The notes under the pieces are model-generated. The model had not been told where the DNA came from, searched no databases, and was given only the letters and a program-made list of their open reading frames with translations. Shown one piece after another: positions 8,254 to 41,502 of a DNA stretch of 64,000 bases. The position numbers and the translations under genes are program-made. Every line of letters starts with the position of its first letter. Position 1 is the first letter of the stretch. Origin of the DNA: Ruegeria sp. THAF33 (GTDB lineage: Bacteria > Pseudomonadota > Alphaproteobacteria > Rhodobacterales > Rhodobacteraceae); assembly GCF_009363615.1 (NCBI RefSeq), contig NZ_CP045384.1, forward strand, positions 1,114,501 through 1,178,500. Direction: 5' to 3'.

Positions 8254-8673
8254 TTAGGCGTTGTGAGGCCCCGTACACTCGCTGTGATCTCCAAACGCAT
8301 GCAGCACGGCACAGACATGATCGTGCTGCCCGTCGCAGGCCGCTGAAATTCGGGTCAGTTCCGCTTCGAGGTTTTGCAGGCGGGCAATTCGGTCCCGCAG
8401 ATCGGCCAGTTGTTTTTGGGCAATTTCGTGCGCCCGGTTAAGGTCGCTGCCAGAGGCGCCCTCAAGGGACAGCAGGCCCACGACGTCGGCCAGTGGCAAT
8501 CCCAGATCACGGCAATGGCGAATGAAGATCAGCCGTTTCAACGCGGCTTCGTCATACCGGCGTTGATTGCCCGCGGTTCGCTCTGGTTTGGGTAACAGGC
8601 CTTTGTCTTCATAGAACCGGATTGTCGGAATTTTCACTCCGGTTCGGCGCGATAGATCCCCGATCGAATACAT
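8254..8673 (-). CDS. MerR-family metal-responsive regulator (ZntR/CadR-like)
   Basis: 139 residues from MYSIGDLSRRTG. The MerR winged helix (about 1-70, VKIPTIRFYEDKGLLPKPERT and NQRRYDEAALKRLIFIRHCRDLGL) is followed by a dimerisation helix. The C-terminal tail is rich in Cys and His (ACDGQHDHVCAVLHAFGDHSEC), where ZntR, CadR and PbrR bind metal. The first Cys of the ZntR CC pair is missing, but His residues could replace it. It diverges from a cation-diffusion exporter whose promoter carries a MerR dyad, so zinc or a related metal is the probable signal. The longer upstream frame reads across the operator and is rejected. Confidence 0.88.
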   Translation of the reverse strand: MYSIGDLSRRTGVKIPTIRFYEDKGLLPKPERTAGNQRRYDEAALKRLIFIRHCRDLGLPLADVVGLLSLEGASGSDLNRAHEIAQKQLADLRDRIARLQNLEAELTRISAACDGQHDHVCAVLHAFGDHSECTGPHNA

Positions 8674-8690
8674 TTTTCGGTTTTGACCTC

Positions 8691-8721
8691 TTGAACCTCT
8701 AGTCGCTAGAGGAATTACATG
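8691..8721 (+). promoter_or_regulatory. MerR-type operator/promoter of the zinc exporter
   Basis: A -35 box TTGAAC (8691-8696) and a -10 box TACATG (8716-8721) are separated by 19 bases, the overlong spacing on which MerR proteins act. Inside lies the perfect dyad CCTCTAG-TCG-CTAGAGG (8696-8712). The exporter ATG is 35 bases downstream. Confidence 0.75.
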
Positions 8722-8755
8722 CTCTGGGAAGCCGTAACAAGGGACATCAAACGAT

Positions 8756-9697
8756 ATGGCACACCAGCATTCCCACACCGGGCATGGTCACCAGCACAAC
8801 CACATTGATCCAGACGCTGGCGATGCCCGCGTCGCCTGGGCGATTGCGGTGAACATGTTCCTGACATTGGCTCAGGTCATCGGGGGCATCATTTCGGGTT
8901 CTCTGGCGTTGATTGCCGATGCGCTGCACAATTTTTCGGATGCTGTTGCGCTGATCATCGCGTTTTTTGCCCGCAAGATTGCACGGCGTCCGGCCGATCC
9001 ACGGATGAGCTTTGGCTATGGCCGGGCCGAAGTCGTTGCGGCATTGGTCAATTACACCACGTTGATCGTGTTGTCGGTCTATCTGTTCTACGAAGGCGTC
9101 ATGCGGTTTTTTGAACCCGAGCCGATCAACGGATGGCTTGTGGTCTGGGTCGCCGCGCTGGCATTGGTGGTCGATCTCGTAACCGCTGCTTTGACGTATA
9201 CCATGGCCAAGGACAGCATGAATATCCGGGCCGCATTCATCCATAATGTTGCGGACGCCTTGGGATCAATCGCCGTGATCGTAGCGGGCACTGCGGTGAT
9301 CCTGTTCGGCTGGACATGGGTGGACCCGGCGGTGACGATCCTGATCGCGGTCTACATCATGTGGCATGTCAAAGAAGAGATAGGCGAGACAGTCCGCGTT
9401 CTGATGCTGGGCGCTCCGCCAAACCTGGAGCCAGAGCAGGTTGCCGCGGCGATCGAAGAAACGGAAGGGGTGGCCGAAGTGCATCACATGCATTTGTGGA
9501 GCATGCAGGAGCGGCAGCCCGCGCTGACGGCGCATCTGGTCATTGATGCGAACGCGTGGTCAGATGCCGAAATGGTACGGGACAGTGTCAGGCACACGCT
9601 GCAAGTTCGTTTCGGGTTGGGCCATGCGACGCTCGAACTGGAACAGGCTGGCCGCGCCTGCGTCGGTTCGTCCCGATTTGGCCACCAGGAAGAATAG
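8756..9697 (+). CDS. cation diffusion facilitator (Zn2+/metal exporter)
   Basis: 313 residues. It exports Zn2+ or a similar divalent cation in exchange for protons across the inner membrane. A His-rich N-terminus (HQHSHTGHGHQHNHI) is followed by six membrane helices. The metal site motifs are DALHNFSDA in helix 2 and HNVADALGS in helix 5. The cytoplasmic ferredoxin-like domain contains VAEVHHMHLWSM. It resembles ZitB/CzcD. It is transcribed from the MerR operator just upstream and is divergent to that regulator, a classic resistance pair. The metal is inferred. Confidence 0.95.
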   Translation: MAHQHSHTGHGHQHNHIDPDAGDARVAWAIAVNMFLTLAQVIGGIISGSLALIADALHNFSDAVALIIAFFARKIARRPADPRMSFGYGRAEVVAALVNYTTLIVLSVYLFYEGVMRFFEPEPINGWLVVWVAALALVVDLVTAALTYTMAKDSMNIRAAFIHNVADALGSIAVIVAGTAVILFGWTWVDPAVTILIAVYIMWHVKEEIGETVRVLMLGAPPNLEPEQVAAAIEETEGVAEVHHMHLWSMQERQPALTAHLVIDANAWSDAEMVRDSVRHTLQVRFGLGHATLELEQAGRACVGSSRFGHQEE

Positions 9698-32506: not shown

Positions 32507-33139
32507 TCAGGTTTCCACCGCCTCGGCGATCGTCAAGGCATCCTCGAGTTCGACTCCTAGATACCGAACCGTGCCGTCCATTTTCGTATGACCAAGCAAT
32601 AGCTGAACGGCCCGCAGGTTTCCTGTTTTCTTATAGATCTGAGTGACCTTGGTGCGCCGCATCGAGTGTGTACCATATGCGCTCGCTTCAAGGCCGATCG
32701 ATGTTACCCAATCTCTGACGATTCGCGCATATTGTCGGGTGGAGATGTGCAGACGCTCGTGGAAGCGTCCGGGCCAAAGGTACTCGGAGCCGACCATGAG
32801 TTCGTCTTCCATCCATTTCTCGACCGAAACACGCGTGCCTTCCGAGATTTCGAAACGAACAGGTTTGTGGGTTTTGCTTTGCAGGACAGACGCACGTTCT
32901 TTGATTTGACCGGACGCCATGACGTCGACGACTTTCATCTTCACCAGATCACAGCCCCTCAGCTTGCTATCGATCGCCATGTTGAACAGCGCAAGGTCGC
33001 GATGGTTTTCGGCCAGGTCAAGTCGGACGCGGATCGCCCAGACGTGTTTTGGCTTGAGCGGGCGTTTCTGGCCGACGATGCGCCCTTTGTTCCAGGCTGG
33101 CCGAAACGCACGAATGGCAGGTAGGTTTGGTGTTTCCAT
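32507..33139 (-). CDS. small tyrosine recombinase/integrase
   Basis: 210 residues from METPNLPAIRAF; GGAGGATCAGTC precedes this ATG, and the longer frame upstream reads in a different codon style. Catalytic residues: Arg in DSKLRGCDLVKMKV, Lys in SKTHKPVRF, the HxxR as THSMRRTK, His in LLGHTKMDG and the nucleophile Tyr in VRYLG. The size is that of FimB/FimE-type recombinases that lack the N-terminal arm-binding domain. A truncated copy lies 3.6 kb away on the same strand, beyond the efflux operon. It may have moved or inverted the segment in between. Confidence 0.9.
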   Translation of the reverse strand: METPNLPAIRAFRPAWNKGRIVGQKRPLKPKHVWAIRVRLDLAENHRDLALFNMAIDSKLRGCDLVKMKVVDVMASGQIKERASVLQSKTHKPVRFEISEGTRVSVEKWMEDELMVGSEYLWPGRFHERLHISTRQYARIVRDWVTSIGLEASAYGTHSMRRTKVTQIYKKTGNLRAVQLLLGHTKMDGTVRYLGVELEDALTIAEAVET

Positions 33140-33297: not shown

Positions 33298-33726
33298 TCA
33301 TCTCGCGCAATAGCTGCAGCTGCTGGGATGAACATCCGTGATCGTGGTTTCGCGCAGGCGCTCCACGAGGTTTGCTTCGATATCGTCGAGGACTTCCGCA
33401 ATACGTGCTTGCAGGCCTGTTTCGACGCTGCAGTCAGAAGGTTCAGCATCGCCGCCAGTCCCAGAAACAAGCCTTTCGTCGAGTGCCAAATAGACGTCCG
33501 CAAGCGTGATGCTGTCGGCTGACTTGGCCAGACGCCAACCGCCTGCATGGCCTTTCTCAGAATGCAAAAGCCCGGCTTCGCGCAGTTTTCCGAGGACTCG
33601 GCGCACGACCACAGGATTTGTTCCAGCGTGATCGGCAATGTCCGACGAAGTGCGCACGCGGTTCGGTTCTCCGGCCATGTGGCTCAGGGTATGCAAGGCA
33701 AGGGACAGGCGGCTGTTTCGCTTCAT
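33298..33726 (-). CDS. Rrf2-family transcriptional regulator with C-terminal cysteines
   Basis: 142 residues from the ATG with GGAGAAGAATTGCCC before it. A winged helix (about 3-75: RLSLALHTLSHMA, NPVVVRRVLGKLREAGLLHSEKGHAGGWRLAK) is followed by a linker helix and Cys residues in SDCSVETG and SSCSYCAR. IscR and NsrR hold a cluster with three Cys in the middle of the protein; here two Cys lie at the extreme C-terminus, so the ligand may be iron-sulfur, zinc or a thiol signal. It diverges from the nine-gene metal operon with 105 bases between starts and probably controls it. Confidence 0.88.
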   Translation of the reverse strand: MKRNSRLSLALHTLSHMAGEPNRVRTSSDIADHAGTNPVVVRRVLGKLREAGLLHSEKGHAGGWRLAKSADSITLADVYLALDERLVSGTGGDAEPSDCSVETGLQARIAEVLDDIEANLVERLRETTITDVHPSSCSYCAR

Positions 33727-33761
33727 GGGCAATTCTTCTCCGGGTCAGATCCAAACGTAAC

Positions 33762-33776
33762 AATGGCAGTTGCATT
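33762..33776. promoter_or_regulatory. possible operator dyad in the Rrf2/GTPase divergent promoter
   Basis: AATG-N7-CATT, with a second short dyad GTTGCAGCAAC about 45 bases further on. Placement between the two start codons suits a shared operator; neither matches a known Zur consensus. Confidence 0.3.
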
Positions 33777-33831
33777 CGTCTAGTAACTGCGTAAGTTGCG
33801 TGACTGTTGCAGCAACCATTGGAGTTCAGAC

Positions 33832-35046
33832 ATGCCAGATTCCCGTCTACCCGTCACCGTCCTGTCCGGATTCCTTGGCGCCGGCAAAACCACCCTGTTG
33901 AACCGGGTTTTGAACAACCGAGAAGGGCGGCGTGTTGCTGTGATCGTCAACGACATGTCGGAAGTGAACATCGACGCCGATCTGGTGCGCGCGGACACCG
34001 AACTCAGCCGAACGGACGAGACACTGGTTGAGATGTCCAACGGTTGCATCTGCTGCACGTTGCGTGACGACCTTCTCAATGAGGTGCGTCGCTTGGCCGC
34101 TGAGCGCCGGTTTGACTACCTGCTGATCGAGAGCACCGGCATATCCGAGCCGCTGCCGGTAGCGGCCACATTCGAATTCCGCGACGAGTTTGGCGACAGC
34201 TTGTCTGATGTTGCGCGGCTCGACACGATGGTGACAGTCGTGGATGCGGTGAACCTGCTCAAGGATTTCTCCAGCCACGATTTCCTGCGGGATCGCGGCG
34301 AAGTCATGGGCGATGAAGACGAACGCACGTTGGTGCATCTTCTGACTGACCAGATCGAATTTGCCGATGTGGTGATCCTCAACAAGGTCGCTGACGCGAC
34401 CGAAGGTCAGGTCGATGCTGCCCGCAAGATCATTCGCAGTCTGAACGCGGATGCCGAAATCATCGAGACGAACCATTCAGAGGTTGCCGCAGACAAGATC
34501 CTCGACACCGGGCTGTTCGATTTCGACAAGGCGCATGAGCATCCGATGTGGGCCAAGGAACTCTACGGCTTTGCAGACCACACGCCGGAGACCGAAGAGT
34601 ATGGGGTGACCTCCTACGTTTACCGTGCGCGCCAGCCCTTCATCCCGGAAAAGATTCTCGCGGTTCTGAATGGGGATATGCCCGGGGTGATTCGAGCGAA
34701 GGGTCATTTCTGGATCGCAACCCGCCCTGAATGGGTGGCCGAGTTCTCTCTGGCCGGCGCGTTGTCCAGCGTCAAACCTATCGGGACATGGTGGGCATCT
34801 GTCCCCCAAGAGCGTTGGCCAGACCACGCATCAGCGCGCGAGTACATGCAGCGGCATTGGGTTGAGCCTTGGGGAGACCGGCGGCAAGAGCTTGTGTTTA
34901 TTGGTTCTGGCGTTGATTGGCCTGCTCTCAAGGAAAAACTCGATGCCTGCCTCGTGCCATCGGTCATGGCTGCCGGACCAGATGCTTTGCCGCTGGACAT
35001 GCCAGACCCGTTTCCCGGCTGGCGGCGCGTTGAGGACGCGGCATGA
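33832..35046 (+). CDS. COG0523/CobW-family GTP-binding metallochaperone
   Basis: 404 residues. GGAGTTCAGAC precedes the ATG at 33832. Walker [15 protein letters not shown], the metal-binding CXCC as [13 protein letters not shown], then [19 protein letters not shown] and Walker-type [21 protein letters not shown]. The C-terminal CobW_C domain begins near [16 protein letters not shown]0523 proteins insert or allocate zinc, cobalt or iron; subgroups under zinc-limitation control (ZigA, ZinU) are established. Linkage to DUF1826 and a Nik-type importer favours a metal-scarcity role. It heads the nine-gene operon. Confidence 0.92.
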
Positions 35047-35678
35047 GCTTCGTCCGCAAAACATTCAAAGGCGCAGCAGTCGGCGTTGCTGTTGCGGACG
35101 ACCCCGCGGGACTGCGCGCCTTTTTGCAGCCGGGATGCGCTGCGGCTATTTGGCGGCGAAACATGCCGAAAGATGTGCAGTCCTGGCTTGAATCCGTGCC
35201 CGAAGATGCCTTGCCGAATGGCCGCGTCATTCTCCCCAAGGGTGCCGTGGCCGAAACCGTTGGACATCTTTGCGATATGTCGGCCATGCCAAACGGAGGC
35301 GAACGTGCCTGGCTTGAGGCTGATATCGCGGAAATGGCGCGCATGTTCGCGGACCTGATGCAGACGGATTACCTGCGTCTGCGGCTGGACAGGATCCAAA
35401 CCAACGCGTGTCGCAGGTTCCACATCGACGCGGTTACCGCCCGCCTTGTGTGCACCTATCGTGGCACGGGAACCCAATATGGTGTTTCCACGGATGGCGC
35501 CGAACCAAAGCGTGTATTCACGGTACCAACAGGCGCGCCAATCCTCCTGCGAGGCACGCTCTGGCCTGCCGAACCGCCGTCAGGCCTTTTGCATCGTTCA
35601 CCGCCGATTGAAGGGACGGGCGAAACCCGTCTGGTGCTCGTTGTCGACCCAATTTTGGACCCGGACGAAGCTGAATGA
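35043..35678 (+). CDS. DUF1826 domain protein
   Basis: 211 residues, start overlapping the GTPase stop (ATGA). DUF1826 proteins have no proven function but are repeatedly found beside COG0523 GTPases in zinc-limitation gene sets. Visible conserved parts are [25 protein letters not shown], whose His, Asp and Arg recall a 2-oxoglutarate-oxygenase-like metal pocket, [12 protein letters not shown], and [22 protein letters not shown], with a late His and Arg pattern. A non-heme metal enzyme is therefore conceivable, but this is inference. No signal peptide or membrane segment is present. Confidence 0.82.
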
Positions 35679-35947
35679 AACGCAATCTCGGTCAATGCAG
35701 TCTGCGTCGCAGAAAGCGTGCAGGAGACCCGATGGATGCCTTTGACAGTTTGCCGCAACCCGTCCGACAATGGGTCGCACAAGCTGCTCTGCCATGGTCG
35801 CCCGCCTCGGTGCGCCGCATTTGGTCCAAGTCTCGGGCGCGGGGGCTGTCGGACGACGAGGCACTCGTTTCGCTTGCCCAAGCCGAAGCCCGCACACTTG
35901 CCCGTGATCGGCAATCCACCGTTTTCAAACTCAACTCCATGTCCTGA
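35675..35947 (+). CDS. DUF6525-type small basic protein
   Basis: 90 residues. The ATG overlaps the DUF1826 stop by three bases. The opening NLGQCSLRRRKRAGDPMDAFD and the Trp/Arg-rich core PVRQWVAQAALPWSPASVRRIWSKSRARG match a small family seen in Rhodobacterales, of unknown function. Helical and basic throughout, so nucleic acid or protein binding is possible. The inner ATG at 35733 is an alternative, but the N-terminal part is conserved in my recollection of the family. Confidence 0.7.
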   Translation: MKRNLGQCSLRRRKRAGDPMDAFDSLPQPVRQWVAQAALPWSPASVRRIWSKSRARGLSDDEALVSLAQAEARTLARDRQSTVFKLNSMS

Positions 35948-35958
35948 AGGAAACCCTT

Positions 35959-37482
35959 ATGTCTTTCTTTTCCCGGTTGGCGGTAGCAGGAGCTATTGCA
36001 CTCGGCACTACGCTGCCCGCAGCGGCCCAAGAGGGCGCTCTTACCATTTCCGTTGGCTTTGGTCCGACGGCCGAAGTGCCTGATCCGCGGGCCAGCTACA
36101 ATGGCTGGATGTCGAACCAGACCGGCGTGACTGAAACGCTCATGGGGATCGACTATGACATGAACCTCTATCCGCGTCTGGCGGAGAGTATTGAACAGGC
36201 GTCGCCAACGACGTGGCGTGTAACCCTGCGCGAAGGGCTGACCTTTCATGATGGTAGCCCGGTAACGGCACAGGCCGTCATTGATTCAATCGCTCCGATC
36301 TCAGATGAGGAGCACCCCGGCCACAATGCACGGGCTTCCAAACTGCTCGATCTTGCGGGTATGTCGATCGACGGCGACCGCGTCGTTGTTTTTGAAACCA
36401 ACAGCCCGAATGCCGCTTTCCCTTGGACTCTGTCCGAACCCGCGATTGCGGTTCTGGGTGAACCGTCCGATGCGTTTCCCATCAACGCTACGGGTCCCTA
36501 CGTGTTCAAGGAAGCGGTGCCGGAACAGCTCTATCGTGCCGAGGCAAACCTGAATTACTGGCAAGGGACGCCCGGCCTCGAAGAAGTCCGCGTCGTCGCT
36601 TCGGCGAACCCTGCCACTGCGGCCTTGGCATTTGAGGCGGGCGAGATTGACCTGGTGATCAACTACCCGGAAACCGACTTTGAACGCATCAAGGAAACGG
36701 GTGCGCAGGGTTTCTCAGCGCCCACGGCACGGCTCTACTTCTTCACAGTGAACGCCAAGAATGGCCCCATGGCAAACCCGCTCATTCGCCAAGCGGTTTC
36801 CTATGCGATCGACCGTCAGGGCATCGTCGACGCGGCCCTGTCTGGCGTTGGTGGTGTCCCGGCAGGCACTGTTTTTCCCGCGGGCAAAGGCTGGGCAGCA
36901 GATATCTCTGCACCCTATGATCCTGCAAAAGCCGAGGCGCTGCTGGCCCAGGCGGGAGCGGTGAAGGAAGGTGGGACCTGGATGCTGGACGGCACACCGC
37001 TGGAAATTGATATTGTCACCTACTCCTCGCGGGCCGCACTGCCGCCGACGGCGGAGTTGACGCAAGCCTTCCTTGCAACGATTGGCGTCAAGGCCAACAT
37101 AACCGTTGGCGAATGGGGAGCAAGCAATGATGCAATCGCGGCAGGTGACGCCGACCTTTTCCTGCAAGCCTGGGTGACAACGCCGCAGGGTGATCCGGGT
37201 GCCGTTCTGGAGACACTGTTGAAGTCTGATGGAAGTTCGAACTCCGGGCGCTTTGCGAATGCGCGTTTGGATGAGTTGCTTGATCTGGGGCGTCTGACGT
37301 TCGACCACGACGCACGCATGGCAATCTACGACGAGGTTCAGCACATCATTGCGTCCGAGGCCGCTTTGATTCCGGTGTTTCATGTCAGCCAGACCAATGT
37401 CGGTGTGCCGGGCCTGACCGGTTATCAGGTGCATCCCACCGAGACTTACTGGATCAATCATGAGACGAAACTGACCAAATGA
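35959..37482 (+). CDS. periplasmic substrate-binding protein, Nik/Opp (SBP family 5) type
   Basis: 507 residues. A signal peptide (SRLAVAGAIALGTTLPAAA) is followed by the family 5 fold: GVTETLMGIDYDMNLYPRLAESIE, WRVTLREGLTFHDGSPVTAQAVIDSI, the hinge region LIRQAVSYAIDRQGIVDAALSGVGGVPAG, and LAQAGAVKEGGTWMLDGTPLEIDIVT. Members carry peptides, nickel or metal-chelator complexes. The start lies 11 bases after the DUF6525-type stop and the stop overlaps the ATPase start. The ligand is unknown; the GTPase-led context favours a metal chelate over a peptide. Confidence 0.92.
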   Translation: MSFFSRLAVAGAIALGTTLPAAAQEGALTISVGFGPTAEVPDPRASYNGWMSNQTGVTETLMGIDYDMNLYPRLAESIEQASPTTWRVTLREGLTFHDGSPVTAQAVIDSIAPISDEEHPGHNARASKLLDLAGMSIDGDRVVVFETNSPNAAFPWTLSEPAIAVLGEPSDAFPINATGPYVFKEAVPEQLYRAEANLNYWQGTPGLEEVRVVASANPATAALAFEAGEIDLVINYPETDFERIKETGAQGFSAPTARLYFFTVNAKNGPMANPLIRQAVSYAIDRQGIVDAALSGVGGVPAGTVFPAGKGWAADISAPYDPAKAEALLAQAGAVKEGGTWMLDGTPLEIDIVTYSSRAALPPTAELTQAFLATIGVKANITVGEWGASNDAIAAGDADLFLQAWVTTPQGDPGAVLETLLKSDGSSNSGRFANARLDELLDLGRLTFDHDARMAIYDEVQHIIASEAALIPVFHVSQTNVGVPGLTGYQVHPTETYWINHETKLTK

Positions 37483-38162
37483 CGCTGAACGTGACCGGTC
37501 TGAGTGCGGCGCGCTCGGGTCGGACCATCCTTCACCCCACATCTCTGGAGATCCCACCTCGAAGCCGCATCGGCCTGGTCGGTGCGTCGGGCTCCGGCAA
37601 ATCCACTCTGGGCCATGTGCTGATCGACGACTTGCGCGCGCGAGGTTACAGCGTCGCTCATGTTCCACAAAGCGCGGATGAGGCGCTCGATCCGTTGCGA
37701 TCCGTGGCGTTTCACTGGCGCGAAGCGGAAATGGCACTTGGTCTCGCAACGGGCAGCACGGACCGGGTCGGGTTGTTCCAGGCGTTGAAGATCGAGGGCG
37801 GCGACATGCGCAAACGCCCTTGGGGCTGGAGCCGTGGGATGCAGCAACGTTTTGTCATTGCCATGGCGTTGATCGGCGCGCCTGATCTGATCGTGCTGGA
37901 CGAGCCGACATCCGCGCTCGATCCCGTGGTGGCAGCCACAACAATGGACCTTCTGAGCGTCACTCTGAATGACAGAAATACGGCGATGCTTCTGATTACG
38001 CACGATCTTGGCCTCGCAGCGCGCTGGGTAGATACGCTCATGGTAATGGACGCAGGGCGCTTGGTTGAGCGAGGTCGCACCGAAGACATTCTGGAAAACC
38101 CGCAGACTCAGGCGGCGAAGTCGCTTTCCGCACATCGCAGTTGGTTGGCGCTGCCATGTTGA
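37479..38162 (+). CDS. ABC importer ATPase (NikD/OppD-like, short)
   Basis: 227 residues, about 100 shorter than typical OppD because the C-terminal oligopeptide extension is missing. Walker A LVGASGSGKSTLG, Q-loop VAHVPQSADEALDPL, Walker B LIVLDEPTSALDP and switch His LLITHDLGLA are good. The signature motif is degenerate, WSRGMQQR in place of LSGGQ. In a two-ATPase importer one composite site can be weak, so this may be the less active subunit. The start overlaps the binding-protein stop (ATGA). Confidence 0.92.
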   Translation: MTLNVTGLSAARSGRTILHPTSLEIPPRSRIGLVGASGSGKSTLGHVLIDDLRARGYSVAHVPQSADEALDPLRSVAFHWREAEMALGLATGSTDRVGLFQALKIEGGDMRKRPWGWSRGMQQRFVIAMALIGAPDLIVLDEPTSALDPVVAATTMDLLSVTLNDRNTAMLLITHDLGLAARWVDTLMVMDAGRLVERGRTEDILENPQTQAAKSLSAHRSWLALPC

Positions 38163-38881
38163 CCGTGAGCAACCTCAAGGTGAAACGCGGGGCGCGTGTG
38201 ACACTACACGACATCTCGCTGTCCTTGCCTGCTGGCGAGACCCTTGCCGTTGTCGGCGAGAGCGGTGCTGGAAAATCCACTCTGATTGCAGCGATCCTCG
38301 GTCTTCTGAAACCCTCAGGCGGGCAGATTACCTGGAACGGCGCACCGACGCGCATGGTCCGTCCAGCCCTCGTCATGCAAGAGCCCCGCGCGGCTTTCAA
38401 TCCGGTGCTGAGCTTGCGCCAATCGATCATGGAACCGGTCGTCGCGCAGAATATCAAACTGGCGCAAGGGCGGCTGCAGCGACTTTGCGCCGAACTCGAT
38501 CTGCCATTGGAAATTCTGGATCGCCGTCCCGGACAAGTCTCGATCGGGCAGGCCCAACGCGCGGGCATCCTGCGCGCTTTGATCGCATCACCCCCACTGA
38601 TCCTGTTTGATGAACCGCTCTCCGCCTTGGATGCCGTTACACAGAAGCACACAGCGCGGCTGATATCCGATCTTCAAGGCGAAGAAGGCTTTGCTGCGCT
38701 GATTGTAACTCACGACCTCGGCTATGCCGTGGCCCATTCGGATCAGATCGCCGTTTTGAAAGCCGGGCGGATCGAGGAAATTGCGGATTCTGAAACATTT
38801 GCCTTGAACCCGCGATCAAAATACTGCCGCACCCTACGCGACGCTGCAATCGCACTTGGGGCACTCGAGGCCGTCGCATGA
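38156..38881 (+). CDS. ABC importer ATPase (NikE/OppF-like, short)
   Basis: 241 residues from the ATG at 38156, overlapping the first ATPase by seven bases. Walker A VVGESGAGKSTLIA, Q-loop LVMQEPRAAFNPVL, signature VSIGQAQRAG (Ile-Gly in place of the usual Gly-Gly), Walker B LILFDEPLSALDA, switch His LIVTHDLGYA. The pairing partner is the preceding gene. The C-terminal Cys-rich iron-sulfur or peptide-type extension of OppF is absent, as in nickel-type systems. Confidence 0.93.
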   Translation: MLTVSNLKVKRGARVTLHDISLSLPAGETLAVVGESGAGKSTLIAAILGLLKPSGGQITWNGAPTRMVRPALVMQEPRAAFNPVLSLRQSIMEPVVAQNIKLAQGRLQRLCAELDLPLEILDRRPGQVSIGQAQRAGILRALIASPPLILFDEPLSALDAVTQKHTARLISDLQGEEGFAALIVTHDLGYAVAHSDQIAVLKAGRIEEIADSETFALNPRSKYCRTLRDAAIALGALEAVA

Positions 38882-39816
38882 TCAAAGCCATCTGTGGACT
38901 TTTGCTGCGCGCGTTCGTTGTGCTGTCTGGCACCACCATCCTCACGTTTGTCTTGCTATGGAATGCGCCGGGCGATCCGGCACAAGCCATTGCCATGGCT
39001 CGGTTCGATGCGCTCCTGACCGATGAGGTCGTTGACCAGGTTCGTCAAGAAGTCGGCTTGGACAGGTCATTCTGGCAAGCCTTCTGGGCATGGCTTGGGC
39101 CACTGCTCACATTGGACCTCGGCTTTTCATCGGTCACCGGCCGTCCTGTCTGGCCCGATCTTGCGGCGGCGATCAGCCATACTTTTCCGCTGGCCTTCTC
39201 ATCACTGGCTGTCGGTCTCGCAGTGTCTATACCCTTGGCAATTCTGGCCACGAAACGTCCCGGCGGATTGATGGACAGGCTCGCCGTGGCGGCCGCCTCG
39301 CTCGGCAACGCGATCCCGGCCTATTGGCTGGGCCTGATCCTTATCCTGCTTTTCTCAGTAAAACTTGCTTGGCTACCCGCGCTTGGTGCAAGCACACCGG
39401 CTCACGCCATCCTGCCTGCGCTGACGCTTGGGCTGGGAGTTGCGGCATCGCTCACGCGGATCATTCGCTCCGGTATTCTTGAGGCGCGCGGCCAGCCTTT
39501 CCTTCCGGCGTTCAGAAGACGTGGGATTGTCGAAAAATCCATTGGAAGAGACCATGTCGCCCCCCACGCTGCGATACCCGTTGTCACTGTTTTTGGATTG
39601 GAACTGGCCTTCCTCCTCGAAGGGCTCGTCCTTGTTGAGGTAATCTTTGGCAGACCGGGCCTCGGCACGTTTCTTGTGCAAGCCATCCTTGCCCGAGACT
39701 TTGCCCATGTGCAGGCCGTTGTGGTCCTGACCGCGCTGGTGTTCGTCGCCGTCAACCTGGCCATCGACTTGACCTACCGCATCATTGATCCTCGGATCGG
39801 AGAGAGCGATGCGTAG
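38878..39816 (+). CDS. ABC importer permease (NikB/DppB-like)
   Basis: 312 residues with about six membrane helices. The N-terminal LLRAFVVLSGTTILTFVLLWNAPGDPAQAIA is typical of DppB/NikB permeases. The ATPase-coupling loop is present near SLTRIIRSGILEARGQPFLPAFRRRG and RHVAPHAAIPVVTVFGLELAFLLEGLVLVEVIFGRPGLG closes the family block. ATG overlaps the ATPase stop (ATGA). Works with the next gene as the heterodimeric channel. Confidence 0.94.
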   Translation: MIKAICGLLLRAFVVLSGTTILTFVLLWNAPGDPAQAIAMARFDALLTDEVVDQVRQEVGLDRSFWQAFWAWLGPLLTLDLGFSSVTGRPVWPDLAAAISHTFPLAFSSLAVGLAVSIPLAILATKRPGGLMDRLAVAAASLGNAIPAYWLGLILILLFSVKLAWLPALGASTPAHAILPALTLGLGVAASLTRIIRSGILEARGQPFLPAFRRRGIVEKSIGRDHVAPHAAIPVVTVFGLELAFLLEGLVLVEVIFGRPGLGTFLVQAILARDFAHVQAVVVLTALVFVAVNLAIDLTYRIIDPRIGESDA

Positions 39817-40603
39817 CGTTTGGGTGCTGGCGATCGTCTTTTTGCTGCTGGCCGGTCTTGGACCCGTGCTTGCGCCTTACGATCCAACGGCAATCAATAT
39901 CCCGAAACGTTTGTCACCGCCAAATTCCGATTTTCTGCTTGGGACCGACGCAATGGGTCGGGATATTCTGTCGCGTTTGCTGCACGGTGCGCGCTGGTCG
40001 CTGGGATTGGCCTTCCTGATCTCGGTCATCAGCCTTGTAATCGGCACCGCAATCGGGCTTGTCGCGGCTCTGGGCGGCAAACGTGCGGATTGGATGGTGA
40101 TGCGGACCACGGACACGTTTCTTGCCTTCCCGGAGCTTGTGGCGGCAATCGTTATTGCCGGGCTGATGGGCGCCGGGACCTGGAGCCTGATCTTTGCCCT
40201 GAGCGTCACCGGCTGGATGCGCTATGCCCGCGTCGCGCGCGGCATCGGCTTGTCGGTTCAAAGCCGTGGCTACGTCGTGCAGGCCCGCCTCGCCGCTCTG
40301 TCGGCCTGGTCTATAGCCCGCTGGCACTATCTGCCATTTCTGATCCCGTCCCTCACAGTCGTCTGGACCGGCATGTTCGCCCGCGCGATCCTCGGCATCT
40401 CGGCACTCGGCTTTTTGGGATTTGGAGTGCAACCGCCGAACCCGGAATGGGGCTCGATGCTGTTGGATGTGCGGGTTCACTTGCGCTCCACCCCCTTGCA
40501 GATGGTCTGGCCCGGACTTGCGGTTGTCCTCTGCGTCTTGGCGATCAACCTGACAGGCGACGCACTGCGTGACGCCTTGGCGGAACGGGACTACCCCAAG
40601 TGA
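39809..40603 (+). CDS. ABC importer permease (NikC/DppC-like)
   Basis: 264 residues from the ATG at 39809, which overlaps the previous gene and follows GGAGAGAGCG. Six helices. The DppC/NikC signature LLGTDAMGRDILSRLLHGARWSL is present, and the coupling loop contains WMRYARVARGIGLSVQSRGYVVQARLAA. FLGFGVQPPNPEWGSMLLD is the usual C-terminal block. Ends with an overlap onto the EamA start (GTGA). Confidence 0.95.
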   Translation: MRSVWVLAIVFLLLAGLGPVLAPYDPTAINIPKRLSPPNSDFLLGTDAMGRDILSRLLHGARWSLGLAFLISVISLVIGTAIGLVAALGGKRADWMVMRTTDTFLAFPELVAAIVIAGLMGAGTWSLIFALSVTGWMRYARVARGIGLSVQSRGYVVQARLAALSAWSIARWHYLPFLIPSLTVVWTGMFARAILGISALGFLGFGVQPPNPEWGSMLLDVRVHLRSTPLQMVWPGLAVVLCVLAINLTGDALRDALAERDYPK

Positions 40604-41502
40604 GAGATTATGACTTTCCAAGACTCGGGATCAGCCTGCGCATCCTGTCTGGGCTGCTCATGGCAGGCATGTTCGTCAGTGTGAAAGCCGTCAGCGCGGG
40701 TGTCCCGCTTGGGCAGATCGTATTTTTCCGCTCCTTTTTTGCCATTTTTCCGCTCGTAGTCTTCCTTTGGATTCGAGGGGAGTTTCCGAGTGGCCTCGCG
40801 ACCGAGCGGCCCGGCGCCCATTTTCTGAGGGCCGGTTTTGGCGCTCTTGCCTTGTTTGGATCCTTTGCTGCCGTCGCACGTTTAAACCTTGCAGAGGCCA
40901 TCCTGATCTCGCAACTCTCCCCGATCTTGATGGCGCTTGGAGCGGCAATCCTTCTGGCTGAGCGCCTGACCCGATGGCGCATCTGGGGCCTCGCGCTCGG
41001 ATTTGCAGGCATTGTCGTGCTCATCTGGCCTGAACTGACAACCTATTCCTGGGAGCGCGGTCGGCTGATGGGGTACTTCTTAGGGTTTGCCACAGCTGTC
41101 TTGACCGCCCTAGCTCTCATCATGGTACGCAGCCTCAACAAGACAGAAAGCCCCGGGGCCATCGCGTTCTATTTCGTTCTGGCGTCAATGATAGGCGGCA
41201 TCGCCACACTGCCTTGGGGTTGGGTCGTGCCCAACGGGCCGATACTTGGTTTCCTGATCTTGTCGGGTCTGTTCGGTGGTTTCGGCCACATCGCGATGAC
41301 ACTGGCATTTCGCTATGCCGAGGCATCGCGGCTTGCGCCCTTCGAGTACATCGCGCTGCTCTGGCCAATTCTCGCGGATGTTTTCATTTTCCGCCTGAGC
41401 CTTGCCACCAGCTTCCTACTTGCAGCGCCACTCATTTTGGCCGGAGCGGCGATCGCGGCGGCGGAAAAAGGTGGAGAGTCGCGCGGCAAGCATCTTTCCT
41501 AA
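40600..41502 (+). CDS. EamA/DMT-family exporter
   Basis: 300 residues from GTG, overlapping the permease stop. Ten membrane helices in two EamA repeats: first GLLMAGMFVSVKAVSAGVPLGQIVFFRSFFAIFPLVVF with LAEAILISQLSPILMALGAAILLAERLTRWRIWGLALGFAGIVVLIWPE, then the second ending FEYIALLWPILADVFIF. DMT members export amino acids, opines and small metabolites; in Pseudomonas an EamA protein (CntI) exports the metallophore pseudopaline. Position as the last gene of an import operon suggests export of a chelator whose metal complex is taken back, but no biosynthetic gene is here. Confidence 0.93.
   Translation: MRDYDFPRLGISLRILSGLLMAGMFVSVKAVSAGVPLGQIVFFRSFFAIFPLVVFLWIRGEFPSGLATERPGAHFLRAGFGALALFGSFAAVARLNLAEAILISQLSPILMALGAAILLAERLTRWRIWGLALGFAGIVVLIWPELTTYSWERGRLMGYFLGFATAVLTALALIMVRSLNKTESPGAIAFYFVLASMIGGIATLPWGWVVPNGPILGFLILSGLFGGFGHIAMTLAFRYAEASRLAPFEYIALLWPILADVFIFRLSLATSFLLAAPLILAGAAIAAAEKGGESRGKHLS

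Follow-up and report, generated by a model that had tools for sequence, protein, structure and literature searches.

A probable zinc-scarcity operon in Ruegeria sp. THAF33 and its proposed passage from Zur to a single-cysteine Rrf2 repressor

The operon and its divergent regulator

The 64,000-nucleotide stretch of the marine bacterium Ruegeria sp. THAF33 analysed here (the window) holds nine tightly packed genes on the plus strand, with one gene for an Rrf2-family regulator divergent from them. Neighbouring genes of the nine overlap by 4-8 bases, the sole exception being an 11-base gap upstream of the binding protein gene. The start codons of the Rrf2 gene and of the first operon gene, zigA, are separated by 105 bases, and a predicted tandem operator lies between them. 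The features are listed below in window coordinates.

33298-33726, minus strand: Rrf2-family regulator, presumed repressor (Pfam PF02082, 105.2 bits)
33757-33799, no strand: predicted tandem operator, GTAAC-N7-GTTGC twice, copies 26 bp apart at 33757-33773 and 33783-33799 (from pattern and comparison)
33832-35046, plus strand: ZigA-like COG0523/G3E GTPase (PF02492, PF07683; NCBIfam ZigA, 586.9 bits)
35043-35678, plus strand: DUF1826 protein (PF08856, 192.1 bits)
35675-35947, plus strand: DUF6525 small protein (PF20135, 105.3 bits)
35959-37482, plus strand: cluster C (family 5) solute-binding protein, SBP_bac_5 (PF00496, 258.2 bits)
37479-38162, plus strand: ATP-binding cassette (ABC) transporter ATPase 1 (PF00005)
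38156-38881, plus strand: ABC transporter ATPase 2 (PF00005; ATG at 38156)
38878-39816, plus strand: ABC transporter permease B (PF00528; Opp2B, 297.3 bits, cut-off 350)
39809-40603, plus strand: ABC transporter permease C (PF00528; Opp2C, 260.7 bits, cut-off 300)
40600-41502, plus strand: EamA-family transporter, putative exporter (PF00892)

An earlier note, made from the sequence alone, had named a GTPase, DUF1826, DUF6525, a Nik/Opp-type importer and an EamA exporter, all of which lie at the positions it gave. It had also placed the operon under an Rrf2 regulator; the nine co-directional genes stand, and the Rrf2 gene itself is divergent and outside the nine. The GTPase narrowly misses the curated cut-off of 600 bits of the ZigA model (NF038288) and carries the CxCC motif as CICC. 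For the EamA protein, no NCBIfam family reaches its cut-off. In DUF1826, H127 (98%), D129 (100%), H184 (96%) and R196 (96%) are conserved among 56 rows kept by length from 66 matches. This HxD...H...R pattern resembles the signature of Fe(II)/2-oxoglutarate oxygenases and suggests a 2-oxoglutarate-oxygenase-like protein; a PDB search with the DUF1826 profile gave no match below E 0.5.

A tandem operator that accompanies Rrf2

Ten other Rrf2-bearing relatives that were compared share the tandem operator (one copy is imperfect in locus L013), and it is missing in L020 and L022, which have no Rrf2. Among 394 genomes of the family, the tandem pattern occurs in 24, at 27 sites, and a reversed-pattern control occurs in none. 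A separate search found an Rrf2 protein of at least 61% identity (next match 55%) in 28 of the 394 genomes, including all 24 with the tandem, and none of the 366 genomes without this Rrf2 has the tandem. Of the four Rrf2 genomes outside the 24, G187 shows the tandem at one mismatch and G342 carries a single site beside its Rrf2 gene; G056 has a single site at an unlinked ZigA gene, and G139 has none.

With the window included, an intact Rrf2 gene adjoins 25 of the 27 tandem sites, and ZigA, DUF1826 or DUF6525 lies on the other side in 26. The tandem of L079 has no adjacent Rrf2 gene, and its genome carries one at L080. At L086, which is a decayed Rrf2/ZigA remnant, the gene that follows the operator matches the AztD zinc chaperone model and no other (324.8 bits, cut-off 400). 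Of 34 sites picked by pattern, 31 have 29-31 bp between the operator and the Rrf2 start codon; the information content of the operator is 1.32 bits per position, compared with 0.42 and 0.57 for the two flanks, a difference partly built in by the choice of sites.

At L080 (9550-11956), the tandem precedes a DUF6525 gene and another gene, adjoined by ABC genes that by eye look like siderophore uptake. In genome G123 (L296, 6423-8812), a related Rrf2 gene with a single operator stands just downstream of a gene that by eye is znuA-like, next to zur.

Zur boxes and the operator almost exclude each other

The genome encodes a Zur homologue beside znuA and znuCB on contig C2, with two Zur boxes; the NCBIfam scores for Zur (124.9) and ZnuA (224.5) in this cluster are both below the cut-offs. 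A scan for Zur sites, proposed in the earlier note, found none within one mismatch of the published motif in the window, where the best site in the operon promoter has 3 mismatches.

ZigA was found in 146 of the 394 family genomes. From 119 loci, 99 distinct ZigA upstream regions were retained (96 from the family sample and three from named loci) after removal of six operator loci in which no ZigA reached 60% identity, of thirteen duplicates and of one locus whose upstream stretch was too short. The tandem is present in 24 of the 99, 23 with adjacent Rrf2 and one (L074) with only a ZigA remnant; the operator loci were picked for having the operator, and 24 against 75 is no measure of prevalence. 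The other family ZigA loci head an identity-ordered list of the matches from the 146 genomes. At one mismatch or better, a Zur box stands in none of the 24 promoters with the tandem (four reach two mismatches) and in 53 of the 75 without it (40 exact, 13 with one mismatch). In 495 trials with shuffled ZigA promoters, 0.6% came within one mismatch and 6.7% within two. Among the 22 promoters with neither element, 12 have a Zur box farther upstream, mostly preceding another COG0523 gene as judged by eye, against 2 of 220 shuffled 1.2-kb stretches.

A Zur homologue persists in 23 of the 24 operator genomes, only G302 giving none. Wholesale loss of Zur is therefore ruled out, and the change of regulator is local to the operon. 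The earlier remark that an Rrf2 regulator in place of Zur would be unusual is borne out and made specific by the co-occurrence of Rrf2 with the operator and by the near-complete exclusion of operator and Zur box.

At L211 (275-1147), a flavoprotein gene akin to thioredoxin-reductase-like genes discussed below lies directly upstream of ZigA, behind a Zur-like box.

The importer and its link to zinc

The gene set as such is already known as a zinc-scarcity operon, since a similar set has been published. In Paracoccus denitrificans, pden1338-1344 join a cluster C importer to a COG0523 gene and two hypothetical genes, and every gene rises more than eight-fold in zinc-depleted medium (PMC5387054; this and the other papers are cited from excerpts). 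Zur boxes precede pden1338 and pden1341, and a gel shift showed Zur binding at the pden1341 promoter (PMC5387054). The content found here (COG0523 GTPase, accessory genes and cluster C importer) agrees with that gene list. COG0523 GTPase and DUF1826 genes have also been tied to Zur regulons or predicted Zur sites (PMC2770081, PMC5786701).

In 14 named loci, the binding protein gene is again accompanied by its ATPase and permease genes, and in 11 of these a divergent Rrf2 gene lies beside them, so the arrangement, whose conservation the earlier note had proposed to check, is not due to chance. A wider importer survey covered 36 loci (35 distinct; L021 and L098 are the same contig), including all 22 genomes of the importer search; L013, L024 and L085 end near the operon. 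Among the distinct loci, 25 have an adjacent Rrf2 gene and 10 do not. A Zur box within one mismatch stands at 9 of the 10 without Rrf2 versus 1 of the 25 with it (L123), and L124 has neither an adjacent Rrf2 gene nor a Zur box. Shuffles of those ten upstream stretches reached one mismatch or better in 2.5% of 600 trials. Three of the nine Zur-box loci encode importers only ~47% identical, and L024 comes from an assembly labelled Chromatiales. Because Zur boxes stand at importer loci, the link to zinc does not rest on ZigA alone, and the zinc-scarcity association drawn in the earlier note is supported by both these boxes and the Paracoccus operon induced on zinc depletion.

Individual loci add detail. 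The marine Ruegeria intermedia DSM 29341 encodes a binding protein 97% identical to that of the window. At L098, a zinc-uptake operon adjoins the importer. Its ZrgA gene (223.3 bits, cut-off 185) is one of several genes back to back with the importer operon, the others encoding an ABC transporter, two DUF3299 proteins and a Zur-like regulator, which scores 80.9 bits against a cut-off of 167. At L074 and L091, a distant importer (binding protein ~30% identical) lies behind the Rrf2 operator. In L013 (968-1201) and L014 (1528-1761), a single open frame consists of the first ZigA codons and the end of DUF1826, brought together by a deletion, and the importer is kept downstream.

The Rrf2 protein and its class

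The regulator has one conserved cysteine, C99, present in 37 of 38 aligned rows (the 38th is incomplete) and aligned with the cysteine of YwnA (1XD7). The C-terminal CSYC that the earlier note had stressed occurs in only 12 of 38 related rows and is not conserved. H12, H16 and H33 are found in 37 of 38 rows and E102 in 36. A study of SifR from S. pneumoniae describes a single-cysteine Rrf2 class and a SifR operator, TGTAA-N9-TTACA (PMC9218516). The SifR cysteine reacts with quinones, upon which SifR leaves the DNA and a catechol-iron uptake regulon opens (PMC9218516). The regulator of the window matches the single-cysteine SifR/YwnA class on predicted operator type and on the cysteine. The HxxPNPxC motif of the SifR cluster is absent; EPSD precedes C99.

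Ten distant Rrf2 relatives (40-55% identical; L301, L302 and L305-L312) all adjoin a gene for a thioredoxin-reductase-like flavoprotein (two of these flavoproteins were covered by a Pfam scan), and nine have a single operator upstream of their own Rrf2 gene. Because of this neighbourhood and the match to the SifR class, we infer that the ancestor was a redox-type repressor recruited to the zinc operon. In S. aureus, exposure to sulfide triggers a zinc-limitation response, of which a COG0523 gene and flavoprotein disulfide oxidoreductases are part (PMC5480029), a lead that fits this reading.

At L300 (1665-2501), a gene 27-29% identical to the flavoprotein, with no Pfam match, lies between the Rrf2 operator and ZigA and is perhaps a remnant of the arrival of Rrf2.

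Direction and number of the proposed exchanges

In a quick ZigA tree of 98 rows, from which the ZigA remnant of L074 was left out, the Rrf2-type rows nest inside a larger Zur-type diversity, and nine changes are needed among the rows of the two types. A single clade of Rrf2-type ZigA is rejected (p-AU 2.4e-6). The tree, which is rooted at the midpoint only, and the published Zur-regulated operon point to a change from Zur to Rrf2. The tree does not separate repeated switching from transfer of whole cassettes. Genome G035 has one ZigA gene under each regulator (L081, L210). In L123 and L125, elements of both kinds abut or overlap, and these promoters are possible intermediates of the exchange. 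A local swap from Zur to Rrf2 at the operon is well supported by sequence comparison.

Proposed regulation and points against it

The operon probably serves zinc scarcity, was ancestrally repressed by Zur, and was taken over by the divergent single-cysteine Rrf2 acting through the tandem operator. Its products would be a GTPase associated with zinc, two accessory proteins, an exporter of the EamA family and an ABC importer whose substrate would be a ligand or peptide that carries zinc. In this lineage, the Rrf2 protein would bind the tandem GTAA-N9-TTAC-type operator in the Rrf2/zigA gap and repress the operon as well as the Rrf2 gene itself. If it works as SifR does, its reduced form would be the repressor, and modification of C99 would release it. 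DNA binding, repression and the zinc-scarcity setting are predicted, as is the thiol signal, which is the least certain step.

Several observations weigh against this explanation. Of the 14 named importer loci, just 3 have ZigA and 11 lack it; DUF1826 is missing in several, and deletion scars are present. Because these genes are often missing beside the importer, the importer core need not be specific for zinc. Across the genome, the Zur pattern at one mismatch has 24 matches versus 28 in the reversed control, so it carries weight only by its position. Ten of the 99 ZigA promoters show neither the tandem nor a Zur box, near or farther upstream; one of these, L133, has one operator copy, and another, L237, an imperfect operator farther off. 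In addition, L123 (11058-11115) has both elements and L125 (6796-6846) has a Zur box over a decayed operator. The operator was first spotted in loci of the same kind as those on which it was tested. Moreover, the compared rows are kin by descent, and the Fisher p-values (~1e-34 for the co-occurrence of tandem and Rrf2, 1e-10 for the exclusion of operator and Zur box at ZigA promoters) overstate independence. Lastly, in most of the 24 genomes a scan for the single site GTAAC-N7-GTTAC gave no excess over its control, so we make no claim of a wider regulon. The sole such site in the THAF33 genome lies inside a 471-amino-acid open frame and is taken as chance.

On the signal, a thiol signal is favoured by the class of the regulator, and zinc itself is possible. 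A fuller proposal, advanced tentatively, is that displacement of Zur by a single-cysteine Rrf2 makes zinc import answer a second input. This input may be a thiol-reactive signal, for which reactive sulfur and an oxidised zinc-binding ligand carried by the importer are candidates, or it may be zinc, sensed at a site built on what was once a redox switch. Under this proposal, the promoters of L123 and L125 look like stages of the exchange.

Alternative explanations

Rrf2 could instead be a zinc sensor, with Zn(II) on H12, H16, H33, C99 and E102 holding it on DNA and zinc loss releasing it, which would duplicate the logic of Zur. The near-invariance of these residues (36 or 37 of 38 rows) agrees with such a site, as does the persistence of the operon among zinc genes after the swap; other Rrf2 proteins, such as RsrR, bind clusters through His, Glu and Cys (PMC9218516). 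However, H12, H16, C99 and mostly E102 are common to the ten relatives beside thioredoxin-reductase-like genes, and H33 to three of them, so that the residues are not specific to the zinc clade and a site built from H12, H16, C99 and E102 is weakened. Zur is also retained in 23 of 24 operator genomes, and G035 keeps one ZigA gene per regulator, which suggests a different input. A zinc-sensing Rrf2 is rather unlikely.

A second alternative, suggested in the earlier note, is opine-type metallophore cycling, in which a chelator would leave the cell through EamA and its metal complex return through the importer. The staphylopine and pseudopaline (Cnt) systems likewise pair a Nik/Opp-class importer with an exporter. 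The importer belongs to that class, and an EamA gene follows it in 23 of the 36 loci, including those of three importers ~47% identical with a Zur box within one mismatch; an exporter-importer pair therefore stays possible. However, EamA was not found in 13 of the 36 loci, three of which (L013, L024 and L085) reach a contig end. The CntA model scores the binding protein at 93.8 bits against a cut-off of 800, and chelator synthesis genes are absent from the operon genes. Nicotianamine synthase (CntL-like, PF03059) had 0 matches in the THAF33 genome, with a positive control in 1 of 14. For the opine dehydrogenase CntM (PF10100), the THAF33 genome and all 14 controls alike gave 0 matches. Cycling of this kind is not supported and appears improbable.

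The importer might also be an ordinary nickel or peptide transporter with no special zinc role, set beside a general stress regulator. Its subunits resemble the nickel/peptide class, to which their best models belong (Opp5A_nikA for the binding protein, 208.1 bits, cut-off 600), and SifR, of the single-cysteine class, senses quinones (PMC9218516). In a NikABCDE test, however, the binding protein, ATPases and permeases all fell below the Nik cut-offs compared, and the staphylopine models listed did not reach theirs either. The Zur boxes found at 9 of the 10 importer loci that have no Rrf2 gene beside them, the ZigA-like, ZrgA and AztD-like neighbours, and the induction by zinc depletion of the similar Paracoccus operon, with Zur bound at its importer promoter (PMC5387054), make this explanation quite improbable.

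That the operator belongs to another, unlinked regulator, with the Rrf2 gene a bystander, could appeal to the tandem of L079 and the one copy at ZigA in L133, both without adjacent Rrf2, but is scarcely credible given that both genomes hold Rrf2 elsewhere, that 24 of 24 operator genomes have Rrf2 and 0 of 366 without it have the tandem, and that nine of the ten loci of 40-55% identical relatives have a single site ahead of the Rrf2 gene found there.

Significance and surroundings

The regulator is the new part of the takeover by Rrf2 that we consider probable: a family that senses reactive chemicals through one cysteine would replace Zur, the usual zinc sensor. If this is true, part of this bacterial family imports zinc in response to a signal that is not the one read by Zur, and the exchange of two unrelated repressors at one operon can be tested directly. 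The operator is predicted precisely enough to be put to a simple binding assay.

Elsewhere in the window, a gene with a phage-integrase domain (32507-33139) adjoins the Rrf2 gene, which is compatible with the stretch being mobile. At 8254-9697, a MerR-family regulator gene divergent from that of a His-rich cation-efflux transporter forms a likely metal efflux pair.

Comparison with known systems

In the excerpts of open-licence PMC literature consulted, no report of Rrf2 control of a zinc-scarcity operon was found. The closest operon is pden1338-1344, which by description, rather than by protein sequence, shares the COG0523 GTPase, two hypothetical proteins and a cluster C importer with its binding protein. 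It differs in its regulator, which is Zur, and in its importer order (binding protein, permease, permease, ATPase), and the excerpts of its paper mention neither EamA nor Rrf2 (PMC5387054).

From the Cnt systems, the operon differs in having no synthesis genes and in a binding protein far below the CntA cut-off. With SifR and YwnA, the regulator shares the one conserved cysteine. Its predicted operator, GTAA-N9-TT(A/G)C, has the same geometry as the TGTAA-N9-TTACA of SifR, a match met after the operator here had been derived, and SifR too controls a metal-chelate (catechol-iron) uptake regulon (PMC9218516). The differences are that the target here is a zinc-scarcity operon, that the operator is tandem, and that the downstream half-sites in the window read TTGC. 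Compared with the published Zur-linked sets of ZigA/COG0523 and DUF1826 genes, the operon of Ruegeria sp. THAF33 stands under a predicted Rrf2 regulator and adds an importer and an exporter.

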